Origin: Porphyromonas sp. oral taxon 275
Lineage (GTDB): Bacteria > Bacteroidota > Bacteroidia > Bacteroidales > Porphyromonadaceae
DNA: 64,000 nucleotides
Assembly: GCF_018127745.1 (NCBI RefSeq)
Contig: NZ_CP072333.1
Span: 1,488,001 to 1,552,000, forward strand
Direction of reading: 5' to 3'
Positions 2,351 through 48,545 of the stretch are shown here, in pieces. Below the pieces are notes generated by a model. The model had not been told where the DNA came from. It ran no database searches and worked only from the letters and a program-made list of their open reading frames with translations. Within the stretch, counting starts at the first letter, position 1. Each line of letters starts with the position of its first letter. The position numbers and the translations under genes are program-made.

Positions 2351-3928
2351 ATGAGCTATACCCCCCTTATGAGCGACACGATCTGCGCCGTAGCCACCGC
2401 CCCTGGCGTCGGCGGCGTCGCCCTCATCCGCGTCTCGGGCAGCGAAGCCCGCGGCATCGTCGATCAGATCTTCCACTGCCGCCAGCTCGCCACTCTGGAG
2501 CGGGCGAAGGATCGCTGTGCCTACTTCGGCCGGATCGTCCATGAGGGGAAGTTCCTCGACGAGGTGCTGGTCACCTGCTTCTACGCCCCGCACAGCTACA
2601 CGGGTGAGGACGTGGTGGAGATCGCTTGCCACGGCTCCCTCTACATACAGCAGGCGCTCCTCGAGGCGCTGACCGACCAAGGCTGCCGCATGGCCGAGCC
2701 AGGCGAATACACCCGCCGCGCCTACCTCAACGGCAAGATGGACCTCAGCCGCGCCGAGGCCGTGGCCGACCTCATCGCCTCGGAGAGTGCCGCGCAGCAC
2801 CGCATGGCCCTCACGCAGATGCGCGGCGGCTACAGCCGTGAGTTCGCCCAGCTCCGCGAGCGCCTCATCCAGCTGACGGCCTTGATGGAGCTCGAGCTGG
2901 ACTTCAGCGAGGAGGATGTCACCTTCGCCGATCGCAGCGAGCTCTTGAGCCTGAGCCAGGAGCTGGAGACGAAGATCCAGAGCCTCGTCGAGAGCTTCCG
3001 CCTCGGCAATGCCATCAAGAAGGGTATTCCCGTGGCGCTGGCTGGCGCAACCAACGTGGGCAAGAGCACCCTCCTCAACGCCCTCCTCGGCGAGGAGCGT
3101 GCCATCGTCAGCGACATCCACGGCACGACGCGCGACACCGTGGAGGAGGTGATGAACGTCGATGGCCTGCTCTTCCGCTTCATCGACACCGCAGGGCTGC
3201 GCCACACGGCCGACCAGATCGAAGCCCTCGGCATAGAGCGCAGCTACGCCCGGATTGACGAGGCCAGCCTCATCCTCCTCGTCCTCGACGCCTCCCGCCT
3301 GCTCCAAGCCCTCCCCCCTGCCGTCTCCCAGCACTTATCCTCCGCCCACCCCGCCTCCCCAGGCGACAGAGCGGACCAGCTCAAGCCCACCGCCGAAACC
3401 AGCAATAAGGGCTGCCACAGCGAACTGCAGCAGCCCCACGCCCCCGAGCCTCAAGAGCCAGCGGACCAGCTTGCCGAGGTGCAGCAGCTACGCCAGCGCC
3501 TCGACCCCGCACGGCTCATCGTCCTACTGAATAAGGTAGACCTCCTCGACCCAGCCGAACTAGAGCAGCTCCTTGACCAACTGCCGCAGCTCCTCGAGCT
3601 CAGCGCCGATATCCCCATCCTCCCGCTAGCAGCGCGCATGGGCAGCGGGCTCCCCGAGCTCCGCAAGGCGCTGGTCACGCGCCTCGCCCTCCCCGAGCTA
3701 AGTCCCTCTTCGCTCGTGGTAAGCAACGCCCGTCACCATGCCCTGCTCAAGCAAGCCGCCGCCCAACTTGCGCTCGTTCGTCAAGGCCTCGCCGAAGGCC
3801 TCCCGACCGACCTCCTAGCCCCCGATCTTCACCTCGCGATCAGCGCCCTCGGCGAAGTCACTGGCGGCGAGATCACCAGCGACGCCGTCCTCCACCACAT
3901 CTTCGCCCACTTCTGCATCGGCAAGTAA
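2351..3928 (+). CDS. mnmE: tRNA uridine-5-carboxymethylaminomethyl(34) synthesis GTPase MnmE
   Basis: MnmE, with MnmG, modifies wobble uridine 34 of tRNAs. Visible in order: the N-terminal folate-binding domain (DTICAVATAPGVGGVALIRVSG), helical domain, G domain with Walker A (AGATNVGKST), the G2 region GTTRD, DTAG and NKVD, and the C-terminal FCIGK motif holding the catalytic cysteine. Starts at 2351 and 2369 are both possible. At 525 residues it is longer than the usual 450-470 because of a Pro/Gln/Ala-rich insertion of roughly 70 residues between DTAG and NKVD (about 3300-3510). The last six codons are also prophage attL; the insertion left the protein intact but separated the gene from its terminator. 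Confidence 0.97.
   Translation: MSYTPLMSDTICAVATAPGVGGVALIRVSGSEARGIVDQIFHCRQLATLERAKDRCAYFGRIVHEGKFLDEVLVTCFYAPHSYTGEDVVEIACHGSLYIQQALLEALTDQGCRMAEPGEYTRRAYLNGKMDLSRAEAVADLIASESAAQHRMALTQMRGGYSREFAQLRERLIQLTALMELELDFSEEDVTFADRSELLSLSQELETKIQSLVESFRLGNAIKKGIPVALAGATNVGKSTLLNALLGEERAIVSDIHGTTRDTVEEVMNVDGLLFRFIDTAGLRHTADQIEALGIERSYARIDEASLILLVLDASRLLQALPPAVSQHLSSAHPASPGDRADQLKPTAETSNKGCHSELQQPHAPEPQEPADQLAEVQQLRQRLDPARLIVLLNKVDLLDPAELEQLLDQLPQLLELSADIPILPLAARMGSGLPELRKALVTRLALPELSPSSLVVSNARHHALLKQAAAQLALVRQGLAEGLPTDLLAPDLHLAISALGEVTGGEITSDAVLHHIFAHFCIGK
3911..3928 (+). other. attL: prophage left attachment site in the mnmE terminus
   Basis: The sequence TTCTGCATCGGCAAGTAA encodes F-C-I-G-K-stop of mnmE and recurs with two differences at 44033-44050 (TTCTGCATCGGTAAGTAG). 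The first 11 bases are identical, so crossover probably lies there. The integrase starts 185 bp away, the usual placement. That the two repeats are att sites is inferred from identity, context and known use of this gene end by SGI1. Confidence 0.88.
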
Positions 3929-4015: not shown

Positions 4016-4112
4016 AAATCTATTTTTGACTTGCTCCTTATTGCGCTACGCTTGTCGTTTATTTGTTGTAGTTTTGTTGCGCGCAGACGTGAACAACAAA
4101 AAGAGCAACAAA

Positions 4113-5258
4113 ATGGCAACGAAAGACCCGGTACGCCTTCGACAGCGAACAACACGGACGGGGCGAACAACGCTCTACCTCGACATCTACGTGGATGGAG
4201 TACGTAGCTATGAATACCTAAGACTCTACCTTGAGCCCGAGAACAGCAGGGCGGACAAGGAGAAGAACCGTCAAACCCTTCAGCTTGCCGAAGCCATACG
4301 CGCAAAGCGACTTGTGGAAGTGCGCAATGGGCAGTTTGGCTTCAAGTCCTCTTCCCCCAAGGTGCGCTTCTTCGACTACTACCAACGCCTCGTGGAGGAG
4401 CGTCTAGGCGAAGAGACCAAGGGAAACTGGGGCAACTGGCGATCCGCCCTCCAGCACCTCAGAGCGTATGAGAAGCGTGAGGCGATCACGCTTTCTGAGA
4501 TCACTCCTGATTGGGTGCTAGGTTTCCGTGAGTTCCTCAAGCGCGACGCCCGAGCCTTCACCGCCCAGTACACACGACAGGTCAGCAACCGCCCTCTATC
4601 GACCAATAGCCAGGTGTCGTACTTCAACAAGCTCCGCGCGTGCCTCCGACAAGCTCACGAGGAGGGGCTGATTGCCACGAACCCAGCCAAGGCAGTAGAC
4701 AGCATCAAGGAGCAGGAGGGCACACGTATGTACCTCACGATCGAGGAGGTGCAACGCTTGGCACAGACAGACTGCACCTACCCGAGCATCAAGCGTGCAT
4801 TCCTCTTCTCGTGCCTCACGGGTTTAAGGCGCAGTGACGTGGAGCGTCTCACGTGGGGGGACGTTCACCGACAGGGGGACTTCACACGCATCATCTTCCG
4901 ACAGAAAAAGACACGAGGTCAGGAGTATCTAGACATCACGCCCGAAGCGGTGGAGCTCATGGGCGAGCGCGGGGAGCCAGCCGAGCACGTCTTCTCAGAC
5001 CTGCACACAGCAGGATGCACCAACCAAGCCATCCGCCTCTGGGTGCTGAAGGCTGGCATACAGAAGGATATTACCTTCCACTGTGCACGGCATACCTTCG
5101 CTACAATGATGCTCGACCTTGGGACGGACATCTACACCGTGAGCAAGCTCCTCGGTCACCGCTTCCTCTCGACGACGCAGGTCTATGCTAAGGTGATGGA
5201 CAAGAATAAGCAGGAGGCGGTCGCCTCTATTCCCTCCATCCTCCGCCCCAAGGAATAG
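4113..5258 (+). CDS. int: Tyrosine-type site-specific integrase of the prophage
   Basis: A 381-residue tyrosine recombinase that would integrate and excise the element at the mnmE 3' end. The N-terminal arm-binding and SAM-like core-binding regions occupy about residues 1-200. The catalytic domain shows Arg239 (TGLRRSD), His323-x-x-Arg326 (HCARH), His349 (LLGHR) and the nucleophile Tyr358 (STTQVYAKVMD), so all key residues are present. The ATG at 4113 was chosen because the longer frame from a TTG at 4026 adds a cysteine-rich stretch unlike Bacteroidota integrases and runs through likely att-arm DNA. It lies beside attL and converges on the small regulator gene at 5331 across a bidirectional terminator. 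Confidence 0.95.
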   Translation: MATKDPVRLRQRTTRTGRTTLYLDIYVDGVRSYEYLRLYLEPENSRADKEKNRQTLQLAEAIRAKRLVEVRNGQFGFKSSSPKVRFFDYYQRLVEERLGEETKGNWGNWRSALQHLRAYEKREAITLSEITPDWVLGFREFLKRDARAFTAQYTRQVSNRPLSTNSQVSYFNKLRACLRQAHEEGLIATNPAKAVDSIKEQEGTRMYLTIEEVQRLAQTDCTYPSIKRAFLFSCLTGLRRSDVERLTWGDVHRQGDFTRIIFRQKKTRGQEYLDITPEAVELMGERGEPAEHVFSDLHTAGCTNQAIRLWVLKAGIQKDITFHCARHTFATMMLDLGTDIYTVSKLLGHRFLSTTQVYAKVMDKNKQEAVASIPSILRPKE

Positions 5259-40689: not shown

Positions 40690-41199
40690 ATGCTTTATCA
40701 CTTTATGCACCGCCTGCCCATGGAGGGCTTAGTGGCGGACTCCCTACTCTTCGCCCTGCTGCACGCTATGGTGCTGGTGGCGATCTTCATCGACCTAGCC
40801 GCAGGCTGGCACAAGGCCAAGCGCCTCGGACAGGCGCGCACTTCCAAGGCGCTACGTCGCACCGTCAGCAAGATAAATAGCTATTACAGCTGTCTCCTCC
40901 TCCTATCCATGGTGGACGTGGCGCTCTACCTGATAGACGTCTGGGAGCGCTTCGGCGTGCCTGAGCTACCGTACTTCGCGGCTTTGGGCACGGTCTTCAT
41001 CCTCATCATTGAGTTACGCAGTGTCTACGAGAATAGGAGCTTTAACGATCCCCAAGCCCCCGACGAAGACGAGGCGATCCTGAGCGATAAGGTCAAGGCG
41101 CTAGGCATGACGCTGCGCGACGTGGCAGCCTTTGCTAAGGAGCACAGAGAGCTGCTGGATGAAGTGCTCAAGGGAAAGGAGGCAAGCGATGGAAAGTAA
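40690..41199 (+). CDS. Phage holin-family membrane protein
   Basis: A 169-residue protein with three hydrophobic segments (about residues 14-38, 62-82 and 92-112: LLFALLHAMVLVAIFIDLAAGW, CLLLLSMVDVALYLIDVW, YFAALGTVFILIIELRSVYENR), resembling Bacteroidota phage holins. The C-terminal tail is charged. It overlaps the endolysin start by 11 bases, a classical holin-lysin arrangement. Confidence 0.82.
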   Translation: MLYHFMHRLPMEGLVADSLLFALLHAMVLVAIFIDLAAGWHKAKRLGQARTSKALRRTVSKINSYYSCLLLLSMVDVALYLIDVWERFGVPELPYFAALGTVFILIIELRSVYENRSFNDPQAPDEDEAILSDKVKALGMTLRDVAAFAKEHRELLDEVLKGKEASDGK

Positions 41200-44032: not shown

Positions 44033-44050
44033 TTCTGCATCGGTAAGTAG
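44033..44050 (+). other. attR: prophage right attachment site
   Basis: TTCTGCATCGGTAAGTAG matches attL at 16 of 18 positions and likewise reads F-C-I-G-K-stop. Host sequence resumes just after it with a strong terminator 24 bp downstream, which fits the original end of mnmE. Confidence 0.87.
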
Positions 44051-44112: not shown

Positions 44113-44765
44113 ACTTGGAGCCTCCTTGCTTAGCTGTATCAATGCTCCCCGTCCTAAGGGAAGGAGTCGTTTACGTTGCCTTTCTGCTGCTCTTCTAGAG
44201 ACGCCCCCACTTCGGTGAGCTTAGCAAGTCCAAGCCCAGCAAGCTGTACGGCGACGAAGCCAAATCAAGGTGCGAGCCCTTGTGCAGAAATGCCATCCCA
44301 ACGCTAAGAGACATCAGTGAAGCCGCCCGAGGGATATCAGTCAGCCCTCCCGATGGATATCAGTCAGCCCGCTGAGGGACGTCAGTCAAGCGACTGAGCG
44401 ATATCGGTCAGCTCCGTGAGGGATATCCCTCGCGGAGCTGGGGCAAAGCAGTCAGCTCGCGGCGAGGCTGTACACTCTTTGCTGAGTGCCCATACACTCT
44501 TTGCTGCACTGCCATTCGCTCTTCGCTCGGGAGCTTGGGAGGGCCTCGCAGCGTATACAGAAGCTTGTGCTCAAGATTATAGGCTAAGGCCGCTACCTTG
44601 CCTAGCACTGCGGCGTCCTTAGGCGGGGAGCAATAGCTAGCCGAGTGAAGTTTGTATAGATTGTACGTCTACCTTCTCTACAATCAGACCAAGAGATTAT
44701 AAGAAGGGAATTATCATTAAATTCGTATTGTCTATTTCGATTATATAAGGTCCCGAGAGCTAATT
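44113..44765. other. Intergenic stretch with repeats and no supported gene
   Basis: Contains the ~22-bp-period array (44325-44440) and a short direct repeat, TACACTCTTTGCTG, at 44471 and 44493. The last 120 bp are AT-rich and should hold the promoter of the 44766 gene; no clear TAnnTTTG box is seen. Short open frames here read as repeat sequence. Confidence 0.6.
44325..44440. repeat. ~22-bp-period array of GAGGGATATCAGTCAG-type units (copy 1)
   Basis: Five units such as CCGAGGGATATCAGTCAGCC, CCGATGGATATCAGTCAGCC and CTGAGGGACGTCAGTCAAGC follow head to tail. The last unit forms a near-perfect 32-bp palindrome at 44409-44440. The same units recur at 52905-52998 and 59832-59929. They are not CRISPR: no unique spacers separate them. 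Confidence 0.85.
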
Positions 44766-47700
44766 ATGAATCTAATTACAAGAGATCATCTCGATCGCTG
44801 GGCTGACACCCCTGATGCCAAGTCTACCTTCCCATATCTCATCTCTAGATTGGTGAGAGCCTCTACTCCCGCCAACACAAAAGTTAATATCCCATGGGGG
44901 AGTGCTAGCTATATTGGGGGCTGGGATGGTGTTGTACAGTGTAGCATTGAGACTAGACATATTCCCCTAGGCACCTCCCTTTGGGAGTTCGGCACCTCCA
45001 ATAATTGCGTAAAGAAGGCGAATGACGACTATGAAAAGCGAAAAAGCGAACCTCTAGGCTTCGACCCAAAGGAGGTAACCTTCGTATTCGTTACCCCAAG
45101 GACCTGGATCAAAAAAGGGGACTGGATAGAAAAGAAGCGGAGAGAAGGTCATTGGAAGGATGTACTCGTCTATGATGGAGTAGACCTAGAACAATGGCTT
45201 GATGAGGCCCCTGCCGTATCCAGGCACTTTGGGACAGAGGTGGGAGTCTATCCAGAAGATGGAATGATTACAGCGGAAGAGTTCTGGAGCGAATGGTCCA
45301 TTTCAAGGAAGCTTACCTTACAGCCTAGTTGTGTGATTTCTGGGAGAGGAGCTGAGAAAGAAAAGCTCCTTACAGCTTTAGATGAAGAAGCGGTTCTGAT
45401 CGGAGTAAGAGCCTCAACGAAGAGAGAAGCGATTGCTTTCATTGCCGCAGCAGCGTGTACCGCTACAACTGGCCGATCACTTTCGCGCACCTTGATCATC
45501 AACACAGAGGACAACTTCCGTAGTATCCTCACAAATGCACATCCTCTGATTCTCATTGCTCAATTTGACAATCCAGATCCACTTTATAGAGCAACAGAAA
45601 ATGGACATCATGTCTTAGTGCCATTAGGGGCGGATGATGAATTCAATATGGAGAGTATCATCCTCCCTGCTGTAGATCGAAATGAATTGATTCAGTCATT
45701 AATTGCAAGTGGCCTTACAAGCGATGAGGCATATATGTACACGAGGGAGTCTGGACTTGACCTTACATCTCTCCGTAGGCTTTTGGCCTTCCCTGCTTAT
45801 GGAGCTGAATGGATGAGCACACAGAATGTTCGAGAGATCATTCCCGCACTCCTCGTAGGTAGATGGAATGAAGGTTATCCAGGAGACACTGAACTCCTAG
45901 AGCGCTTGTCAGGGAAAGACTACAAGGACTATCAAGAGATATTATATCCATGGCTTCATTTACCCAACGCTCCACTCAAGCAAATTGGACGAAAATGGAG
46001 ATTGACCTCTCCTTTGGACTTATGGTCTAGCCTGTCTTCTAGACTTACGAAGAAAGACCTTGAGGTATTTCAAGAGTGTTTTCAGCTGGCCTATGAATCC
46101 GAAAATTCCCATATCGATGCTGAGGCAGACAAGGGTCTCCTCTCGACCTCGAGCTCTCAAGAGAGAAGATACTCCTATTGGATCAGAGAAGGCCTCGCTC
46201 AATCACTCATCTTAATATCCGGGATAGGGAAGGACAAGTCTCATCGTATAGGGGATGCCCAGAGATGGGTCGATACCATCATAGAGAAGCTACTCTACAA
46301 TGCGGACGAGAGTGTTTGGCTTTCTGTCCACAAGGAGCTTCCTCTCCTTGCAGAGGCCTCCCCGAGGAGCTTTCTTAACGCAGTGAGAGACTCTTTATCT
46401 TCTACTAATCCAGCGATCATGCGACTCTTCAAAGAAGAGGAGGGATTTTGGTCGAAAAGGAGCCATCACCCAGATCTTCTACGGGCTCTCGAAGGACTGG
46501 CTTGGCTGCCCGAATATCTGCAGGAATCTAGTTCGATTCTTCTAACGCTAGCTAAACTTGATCCCGGAGGTTCTTTAGCTAATAGACCAATGAATAGCCT
46601 CGTAAATATCTTCCATCCTTGGATGTATCAGACACTCGGCTCATGTAGCGAAAAGATTAACACCTTAAAGAGCCTCGTAGATCAGGATCTAGAGGTCTCT
46701 TGGGATCTCCTAGTAAAGCTATTCCCGCACTCAGAGGTCGTAAGCAACCTAACTTATAGGATGCGTTGGAGGATGTTCAAGGAAAGTACAGCGCCTTGGT
46801 ATGATCCTCAAGAAATAGCAACTATGTTTTCGGAGCTGACCGATATGCTAGTAAGCCGATATGCTATCGATGACAAACGACTCTCCGAACTAGTTGCAGC
46901 GGCAGCACGGAAAGAAATAGGCTCGCGGAATCGAGAGCGTATTCTACGTCGATGTTTCGAAGTAGCAGGTGGCATTAGCCAGAAGGAACACCAGGCTTGG
47001 AATAGACTCCGTGACATTCTAAGTAGACACAGACTGTACGTCGATACCGATTGGGCCCTGACGGAGGAAGAGCTAGCTCCCTTTCAGGAGCTATACAGCC
47101 AACTGCAACCCGAAGACGTGATAGAGAGGTCGATTTGGCTATTCAATGATGAGTTTCCCGCCATAGTAGTTCCTCCCTCTAGGACTATAGATCCTCTCAA
47201 ACAGCACCAAGAGAGAGTAGTGCAAATCAAGCTCGCGAGAGAAGAAGCTGCAAGAGAGCTCATCAATCAAATGGGACTAGCCAAGACGATCGCGTTAAGG
47301 AAAGTGGTAAAGCAACCGCGAACTCTTGGAGAAACCTTGGCCGCCGTGCTCACAAGCTCTCATGATATCCAGCGTATATACGAATGTCTAGAAGATGATG
47401 ACTCGCTCATTGAATTTACTCATGGGTTTATCTATGAGCGCCCAGAACATAGAGATCTGCAACTATTGCAGATATTGGTCCAGGACCTCCAAAAGGTAGG
47501 ACTCAGTACCAGAGCTATAGCAAACGCTCTTGTGGGAGGGCCTCAAAATAAAGAACTCTGGGACTACATAGACACACTGTGTGAGGAGGTACAACAAGAG
47601 TTCTGGCGAAGGATTCGACCTTTATGTGTTCCGATTCTTGATGGGGATCTTGTCTCGTTTATAGGAAAGCTACTACAACACCGCAGATTCTACTCAGCAA

Positions 47701-48545
47701 TAGATATTGCTTGGCTTGGTCGAGACCAGCTCCCTAGTAAGATAATCGTTGATTTACTACGACAAGCTGCGACGAAGGAAGCCTCAGAACCTGGGCATAT
47801 TGATCAGGATGCAATAGGAATGCTCTTCCGAGCACTCAATAAACGTCAAGACGTCGAGCCTAGCACAATGCTAGAGTTAGAAATCCTCTATCTTGAGCAG
47901 CTCATGTATAAGGGGGCTGGAATAGGCGCACCGCACATAGAGGCAGAACTTGCCCACAACCCAGAAAGCTTTGTTCAACTTCTGGAGTGGCTGTATCTCC
48001 CTAAAGATCCAAGTCTACAAGAGAAAGAGTCTGAAGGTTTATCTGAGGAGCAGAGACAGAACGCAGCTCATAGAGCCTATTTAGTATTGAGTACTTGGAC
48101 TAAAATACCGGGAATGCGAGAAGACAAGTCTATTGACGCAGAGGCACTATGGGCTTGGGTGGAAGAAGTTAGAAGCTTGGCAAAACATAGGAATAGGATA
48201 GAGGTCGCTGATGCCGAAATCGGTCGTATCCTGGCTCGATACCCGATGGACTCTATCGATAGGGCAGAAGAAGCGATCTTCCACACTATAGAGCGCATCA
48301 ATACGGAAGATATAAAGAGAGGATACTTAATAGAGCTATTCAATCAACAAGGTGCAACTATCAGGGGGGTATTCGATGGGGGCGCCATTGAACGGCAACG
48401 AGCAGAATCCTTCGGGAGCCTAGCCCAAAAGACCCGCCGTGCCTATCCAAACGTATCAAAGATATACCAGGATCTAGAGAACAGGTATCTACGTGAAGCT
48501 CATAGGAAAGATGAAGAAGCCGAGGTCGCAAAGCTAGACGGCTAA
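44766..48545 (+). CDS. Large 1259-residue protein of unknown function, candidate defence NTPase
   Basis: Residues 1 to ~190 form a module with SYIGGWDGVV (about 48-57), SLWEFGTS, KANDDYEKR, FVFVTPRTW and VDLEQWLDEAPAV, which resembles predicted restriction-nuclease-like N-termini. Residues ~190-370 look like a degenerate P-loop region: SGRGAEKEKLL, then IGVRASTKREAIAFIAAA where a Walker A might have been, and ILIAQFDNPDPLY. The remaining ~890 residues are helical, repeat-like and without membrane segments. The layout recalls STAND-type immune NTPases but lacks a clear GxGKT. It stands alone, 716 bp past attR, and is AT-richer than its neighbours, suggesting transfer. No experimental family is recognised. 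Confidence 0.75.
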   Translation: MNLITRDHLDRWADTPDAKSTFPYLISRLVRASTPANTKVNIPWGSASYIGGWDGVVQCSIETRHIPLGTSLWEFGTSNNCVKKANDDYEKRKSEPLGFDPKEVTFVFVTPRTWIKKGDWIEKKRREGHWKDVLVYDGVDLEQWLDEAPAVSRHFGTEVGVYPEDGMITAEEFWSEWSISRKLTLQPSCVISGRGAEKEKLLTALDEEAVLIGVRASTKREAIAFIAAAACTATTGRSLSRTLIINTEDNFRSILTNAHPLILIAQFDNPDPLYRATENGHHVLVPLGADDEFNMESIILPAVDRNELIQSLIASGLTSDEAYMYTRESGLDLTSLRRLLAFPAYGAEWMSTQNVREIIPALLVGRWNEGYPGDTELLERLSGKDYKDYQEILYPWLHLPNAPLKQIGRKWRLTSPLDLWSSLSSRLTKKDLEVFQECFQLAYESENSHIDAEADKGLLSTSSSQERRYSYWIREGLAQSLILISGIGKDKSHRIGDAQRWVDTIIEKLLYNADESVWLSVHKELPLLAEASPRSFLNAVRDSLSSTNPAIMRLFKEEEGFWSKRSHHPDLLRALEGLAWLPEYLQESSSILLTLAKLDPGGSLANRPMNSLVNIFHPWMYQTLGSCSEKINTLKSLVDQDLEVSWDLLVKLFPHSEVVSNLTYRMRWRMFKESTAPWYDPQEIATMFSELTDMLVSRYAIDDKRLSELVAAAARKEIGSRNRERILRRCFEVAGGISQKEHQAWNRLRDILSRHRLYVDTDWALTEEELAPFQELYSQLQPEDVIERSIWLFNDEFPAIVVPPSRTIDPLKQHQERVVQIKLAREEAARELINQMGLAKTIALRKVVKQPRTLGETLAAVLTSSHDIQRIYECLEDDDSLIEFTHGFIYERPEHRDLQLLQILVQDLQKVGLSTRAIANALVGGPQNKELWDYIDTLCEEVQQEFWRRIRPLCVPILDGDLVSFIGKLLQHRRFYSAIDIAWLGRDQLPSKIIVDLLRQAATKEASEPGHIDQDAIGMLFRALNKRQDVEPSTMLELEILYLEQLMYKGAGIGAPHIEAELAHNPESFVQLLEWLYLPKDPSLQEKESEGLSEEQRQNAAHRAYLVLSTWTKIPGMREDKSIDAEALWAWVEEVRSLAKHRNRIEVADAEIGRILARYPMDSIDRAEEAIFHTIERINTEDIKRGYLIELFNQQGATIRGVFDGGAIERQRAESFGSLAQKTRRAYPNVSKIYQDLENRYLREAHRKDEEAEVAKLDG

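Follow-up and report, generated by a model that had tools for sequence, protein, structure and literature searches.

The window analysed here is the whole 64,000-nucleotide stretch of Porphyromonas sp. oral taxon 275 (contig NZ_CP072333.1, positions 1,488,001 to 1,552,000). It carries a gene for a 1259-residue protein (P0001) in which a nuclease-like head, a STAND-like middle domain and a long helical tail follow one another in a single chain. The gene is an unbroken ATG frame of 1259 codons that occupies exactly positions 44766-48545 of the plus strand. A full-length cluster of relatives (P0002; 21 member sequences on 6 contigs) is 98% identical to it and numerous full-length relatives share approximately 50% identity, a few of them labelled uncultured Porphyromonas. 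This conservation indicates that the frame is not a chance open reading frame (ORF), and it is a genuine gene, standing alone. Its GC content is 0.47 overall and 0.45 at third codon positions (GC3), compared to a GC3 of 0.86 and 0.84 in the two host genes taken for comparison, mnmE and the right-hand TonB receptor gene, respectively. The gene is therefore AT-richer than the host genes around it, as a preliminary description of the window had stated, and its base composition is foreign, that of a horizontally acquired gene.

Domain order of the protein

The AlphaFold model of residues 1-653 had a predicted local distance difference test score of 92. The N-terminal elements in this model (helix 18-33, strands 39-41, 55-59 and 69-75, helix 81-94 and strand 105-109) follow, by their order, the helix-strand-strand-strand-helix-strand core of PD-(D/E)XK nucleases. 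Residues D54, E74 and K84 did not vary among the 100 aligned sequences, the query being one of them, and the acidic pair is placed on successive strands, D54 opening strand 55-59 and E74 lying inside strand 69-75. The Lamassu LmuA nuclease (PDB 9hr5) matched residues 14-236 structurally. The restriction-nuclease-like head proposed in the preliminary description is borne out by this order and conservation, and the motifs it quoted (GGWDGVV, SLWEFGTS, FVFVTPRTW) are all present, the first two being strongly conserved.

An AAA+ fold was recognised by structure search across residues 164-343. Within it, the Walker A motif (GxxxxGK[ST]) was absent from the P-loop place (residues 212-222) in all 100 aligned sequences, and the family instead displays the motif A-[DSE]-[ST]-x-x-E-A, so the earlier reading of IGVRASTKREA as a P-loop region that is not intact extends to the whole alignment. 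Residues ~344-1259 were modelled as almost entirely helical, in line with the approximately 890 helical residues predicted earlier. The tail matched karyopherin, CRM1 and PP2A, a likeness that was set aside as common solenoid geometry.

A Foldseek search of the PDB with residues 1-653 returned Avs4 in complex with phage portal (8dgf) as the best match (E-values of 1.5e-7 and 5.1e-7 for two chains), and this was the sole entry at E ≤ 0.001. The next matches were chains of Apaf-1, clamp loaders and CED-4, beginning at 3.5e-3. No match to P0001 was found in the viral structure library at E ≤ 0.001. The suggested likeness to the sensor-effector layout of STAND-type immune proteins is thus upheld by the AAA+ fold and by Avs4 as best structural match. 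P0001 is a well-supported structural relative of the Avs-type immunity proteins; it is not an Avs by membership because Walker A is lacking. The coordinates of all features are collected in Table 1.

Table 1. Features of the window and of two loci carrying a related tail (window positions unless a locus is named).
Feature	Coordinates	Strand	Basis
Whole gene, 1259-aa single-protein nuclease/pseudo-STAND/solenoid (P0001)	44766..48545	+	ATG ORF, homologues, model
PD-(D/E)XK-like nuclease domain, residues 1-160	44766..45245	+	Model element order, conservation, LmuA match
Invariant nuclease residues D54; E74; K84	44925-44927; 44985-44987; 45015-45017	+	100-sequence conservation
AAA+/STAND-like domain, residues 164-343	45255..45794	+	Structural matches
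Lost P-loop position, residues 212-222 (IGVRASTKREA)	45399..45431	+	100-sequence alignment
HEAT-like helical solenoid, residues 357-1254, putative sensor	45834..48527	+	Model, structure and sequence matches
mnmE/trmE, target gene of the element, site anchor	2351..3928	+	Pfam MnmE/TrmE (2351-3925)
Putative attL core, at end of mnmE	3911-3927
Tyrosine integrase of element	4026..5258	+
Holin-family gene of element	40690-41199
Putative attR core of neighbouring element	44033..44049	+
1180-aa protein, same tail and different N-terminal domain	L017:794-4336	-
1180-aa protein, same tail and different N-terminal domain (E. coli EC96)	L060:6546-10088

Distribution of the family and relatives of its tail

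No family in the Pfam, PADLOC or NCBIfam profile libraries matched P0001 at E ≤ 10, and the single match among PDB sequences (E 1.4) was meaningless. Scoring of 7,994 candidates nevertheless yielded at least 1,093 homologous proteins at E 1e-3, with named sources that include Chloroflexota, Planctomycetota, Myxococcota, Gemmatimonadaceae and Candidatus Binatia. The gene was present in none of the 24 same-genus genomes searched; across the phylum it was found in 13 of 394 other genomes, or 14 of 395 with its own counted. A scan of genome contigs gave 0 loci at first and 23 loci when repeated with a closer alignment. Matches were found in 22 plasmid records, 17 of them covering 80% or more of the query at a single place and 11 predicted to be conjugative, in hosts from the Pseudomonadota, Actinomycetota and Bacteroidota. 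A search of 50,697 phage records gave one partial match, and viral contigs yielded no confirmed relative. The P0001 family is therefore widespread and unnamed in the libraries searched. No paper among those listed by the literature searches was recognised as describing the protein; the protein of PMC12724215 is ParA-like and a different protein.

This distribution bears on whether P0001 could be a chromosomal housekeeping protein for DNA repair or of a clamp-loader type. RFC/Orc-type AAA+ folds do occur among its structural matches, but we regard such a role as highly improbable given the absence from the 24 same-genus genomes searched, the sparse occurrence within the phylum, the foreign GC3, the missing Walker A and the nuclease-like head.

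Some relatives carry additional N-terminal domains. Judged by where the GxDG motif lies, 22 of 111 distant relatives have an N-terminal extension, compared to 0 of 213 nearer motif-bearing sequences (query included). Pfam assigned the heads of distant relatives to XRE-type helix-turn-helix (HTH), LexA DNA-binding and ArsR-type HTH families and one to NB-ARC; in the latter (P0220), an NB-ARC domain with an intact Walker A is placed before the family's own core. Another (P0240; 1479 aa) begins with a LexA-like head, made up of a DNA-binding domain and Peptidase S24, which is joined to nuclease and solenoid. A Pfam scan of 15 relatives returned mostly HTH families, and a PADLOC scan of relatives, likewise 15, returned Control_protein (6e-13), mad1 (6e-10), PD-Lambda-4_A, capH, RmrA and MTase_II. 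None of these names was adopted for the family, the matches presumably reflecting the HTH heads.

The tail has relatives of its own. Of 5,426 E. coli genomes, 14 had some match to the Buttiauxella copy of a tail-only protein and 7 matched it over the full query; gapS6a was annotated alongside in six of these seven. In the one E. coli locus opened (L059), a 106-aa gene matching the NCBIfam model for antiphage GapS6a (NF047935) is followed by a 930-aa protein, the pair being located near phage tail genes; the Buttiauxella counterpart of the 106-aa gene is 83% identical and matches Pfam HetE-N. Residues 357-1254 of P0001 aligned with the 930-aa protein at 23% identity (BLASTP, E 4e-51), and another family member (L032) shares 36% identity with it. 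The 930-aa protein is labelled hypothetical in the NCBI annotation and so is described solely as a gapS6a neighbour. GAPS6 itself is said to be the system of Mahata et al. 2024. The same tail occurs behind a different N-terminal domain (NPFSTGGGG...) in two 1180-aa proteins, from locus L017 and from E. coli EC96, which are 71% identical to each other; the latter aligned with residues 311-1245 of P0001 (E 3e-74). Neither has a credible NCBIfam match, and the L017 protein is also unmatched in PADLOC. These two proteins are a candidate second single-gene variant. The tail of P0001 is thus a shared, swappable module. The absence of a described family claimed earlier holds for the protein as a whole in the libraries searched, but not for its tail, which is common to the gapS6a-neighbour protein. 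A Pfam scan of the genes adjacent to P0001 (41615-43336, 43339-43776 and 48801-51938) found no HetE-N/GapS6a, and a HetE-N search of the whole genome was empty, with no signal from control genomes either.

The mnmE site and gene neighbourhoods

The P0001 gene begins 0.7 kb past the putative attR of an integrated, prophage-like element that extends from ~3.9 to 44.05 kb of the window at the 3' end of mnmE. The 17-base core TTCTGCATCGG(C/T)AAGTA is found at positions 3911 and 44033 with one mismatch between the copies. The mnmE/trmE gene is a general integration hotspot. Twenty-five other genomes of the genus have an MnmE match, and the stretch downstream of mnmE was inspected in four of them: two (L063, L068) carry a different tyrosine integrase 1-2 kb downstream, and one (L061) encodes NACHT (1317 aa) and TIR proteins 5-10 kb downstream. 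These contents mark the site as variable in the genus and able to hold defence-type genes, and the placement beside a prophage integration site given in the preliminary description was confirmed. An empty site, with mnmE adjoining the right-hand receptor gene, was not found in the relatives' loci opened.

In L061 (389-5544; sister species G004), the NACHT protein is accompanied by a 170-aa protein without a Pfam match and the TIR-domain protein, and the trio is possibly a single NLR-like defence operon. The mnmE product of the window is 525 aa long and has ~50 additional residues near 320-372 compared to genus relatives; most genus MnmE matches break at this insertion. The MnmE end recurs elsewhere in the genome (G000:C1:313695-313793) as a 33-residue copy with 73% identity, possibly a further attachment-site trace. 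Between attR and the P0001 gene, positions 44313-44427 hold a degenerate 22-bp tandem array. Its core, GGGATATCAGTCAGCC, is a repeat dispersed across the whole genome, with 127 forward and 112 reverse copies at ≤2 mismatches; the reversed pattern, used as a control, gave 0 and 1.

Plasmid loci of relatives were opened for 15 of the 22 records, 12 of them annotated, and defence genes were judged by product name within 10-12 kb. Five of the 12 had defence-named neighbours: Shedu (L003), type I restriction-modification (L027), AbiE with reverse transcriptases (L028), abortive infection with SIR2 (L029) and a restriction endonuclease (L030). On an Adhaeribacter plasmid (L002:9932-11989), an HTH gene, an ImmA/IrrE protease and a YhcG-type PD-(D/E)XK nuclease gene stand immediately before the relative.

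For chromosomal hits, the five nearest ORFs were taken at each of 26 loci, giving 130 neighbours; 28 loci had been chosen, and L046 and L048 were left out as no family gene was called. PADLOC models matched at 1e-15 numbered 79 for these neighbours and 38 for 130 control proteins, a control set drawn from 138 proteins on 19 stretches whose eight omissions (the five L088 proteins and three others of great length) possibly lowered its count. The best 25 of the 79 matches include cyclases, Avs3a and bSEFIR, and the best 25 of the 38 control matches include pAgo and DISARM. Three of ten hand-picked neighbours had a PADLOC match (a type IIG enzyme, a viperin-like protein and an oligonucleotide cyclase). 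On the expectation that homologues would lie in defence islands, the tally is five of 12 annotated plasmid loci with defence-named neighbours and no clear excess in the chromosomal scan. Since this test did not separate neighbours from controls, we infer function, and the association with defence genes is suggestive only.

Only 2 of the 130 neighbours had a homologue at another locus. In the absence of a recurring neighbour, the P0001-type gene behaves as a self-sufficient cassette. The same result argues against a toxin-antitoxin-like role in plasmid or mobile-element maintenance or competition, in which the HTH would repress the gene, the nuclease would kill cells or attack rival plasmids, and phage would not be the main target. 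The 22 plasmid records with the gene or part of it, half of them predicted conjugative, and the HigA/VapI-like and other HTH heads, as seen in addiction modules, would suit that role. P0001 itself, however, is chromosomal and lacks an HTH head, and toxins would not usually be expected to include a sensor of 900 residues; we consider this explanation unlikely.

A proposed nuclease sensor and its relation to known systems

The nuclease residues are kept and the nucleotide loop is absent in all aligned sequences. This combination is read most economically as an Avs-like sensor in which the STAND domain has become a scaffold that works independently of nucleotide. We think it probable that P0001 is a single-protein, ATP-independent, Avs-like nuclease sensor acting as a stand-alone anti-phage or anti-mobile-element protein, with a role in phage defence being likely. 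The tail (~357-1254) would bind a ligand specific to infection, probably one of the phage's proteins, and binding would alter the contacts of the AAA/STAND-like domain, which without a P-loop may serve as scaffold and assembly platform. The N-terminal nuclease, with D54, E74 and K84, would thereby be activated to cleave DNA and halt infection, probably by abortive infection. We infer the ligand, the oligomer and the substrate alike. In some distant members, the extra N-terminal DNA-binding domain probably represses the protein's own gene until infection or DNA damage. According to PMC12931631, Avs1-4 recognise phage packaging proteins and then cut phage and host genomes, and Avs5 immunity requires the Walker A lysine.

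Several observations weigh against this proposal. Loss of Walker A takes away the switch that Avs5 needs (PMC12931631). Whole-chain TM-scores between P0001 and Avs4 were low (0.22 and 0.18; root mean square deviation ~20 Å), so the Avs4 match is supported by the Foldseek E-value and local likeness, and HEAT solenoids resemble many unrelated proteins. PADLOC includes at least an Avs3a model, and no PADLOC model matched P0001 at E ≤ 10; the matches of its relatives all read as HTH-type, and the neighbour scan gave no clear enrichment over controls. One of the four sister genomes (L062) has neither an integrase nor a recognisable defence gene downstream of mnmE. Finally, the canonical lysine two positions past the glutamate is missing, residue 76 being G in 92 of 100 sequences, S in 7 and T in 1. 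The invariant K84 in the following helix may stand in for the ExK lysine, and catalysis from a helix is assumed.

Some anti-phage nucleases attack RNA, and G76 together with a helix-borne K84 implies that the chemistry is not canonical. An effector that targets RNA or another nucleic acid instead of DNA, with the same anatomy, sensing and outcome, would accommodate this. The structural neighbour LmuA is, however, DNA-bound according to its entry title, and Avs1-4 are described as cutting phage and host genomes (PMC12931631); we hold such an effector to be improbable.

If the nuclease-sensor proposal is true, a large family (at least 1,093 homologues in several phyla) missed by the annotation libraries searched joins bacterial immunity. 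If the protein is active, it would test STAND-type receptor signalling without nucleotide binding, which is impossible for Avs5, and the solenoid common to the GAPS6 neighbour protein would gain a place as an exchangeable sensor. A broader and more doubtful idea is that the family forms a widespread NLR-like sensor class without ATP switching. In such a class, a pseudo-STAND domain would couple a HEAT sensor to a nuclease and the sensor would be traded between N-terminal domains and GAPS6. Some members would be fused to repressors, once to LexA with S24, so that sensing, SOS state and self-expression would meet in one polypeptide.

Among known systems, Avs4 (AVAST type 4 of the STAND superfamily; 8dgf) shares with P0001 an N-terminal nuclease, a central STAND/AAA fold and a long helical C-terminal part on one chain. 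P0001 differs in that neither PADLOC models nor PDB sequences show detectable homology to its sequence, Walker A is missing, the tail is HEAT-like where that of Avs4 is TPR-like, and some distant relatives bear HTH or LexA heads. The Lamassu LmuA nuclease (9hr5) is also among the closest known systems. Bacterial NACHT/NB-ARC immune proteins have the same three-part layout of effector, NTPase-like domain and repeats, whereas the NTPase-like domain of the P0001 family itself lacks Walker A. With GAPS6 the likeness lies in the solenoid, which is homologous to the 930-aa protein directly after gapS6a; in P0001, unlike GAPS6, nuclease-like and pseudo-STAND domains are fused ahead of this solenoid and the scanned adjacent genes include no HetE-N/GapS6a.

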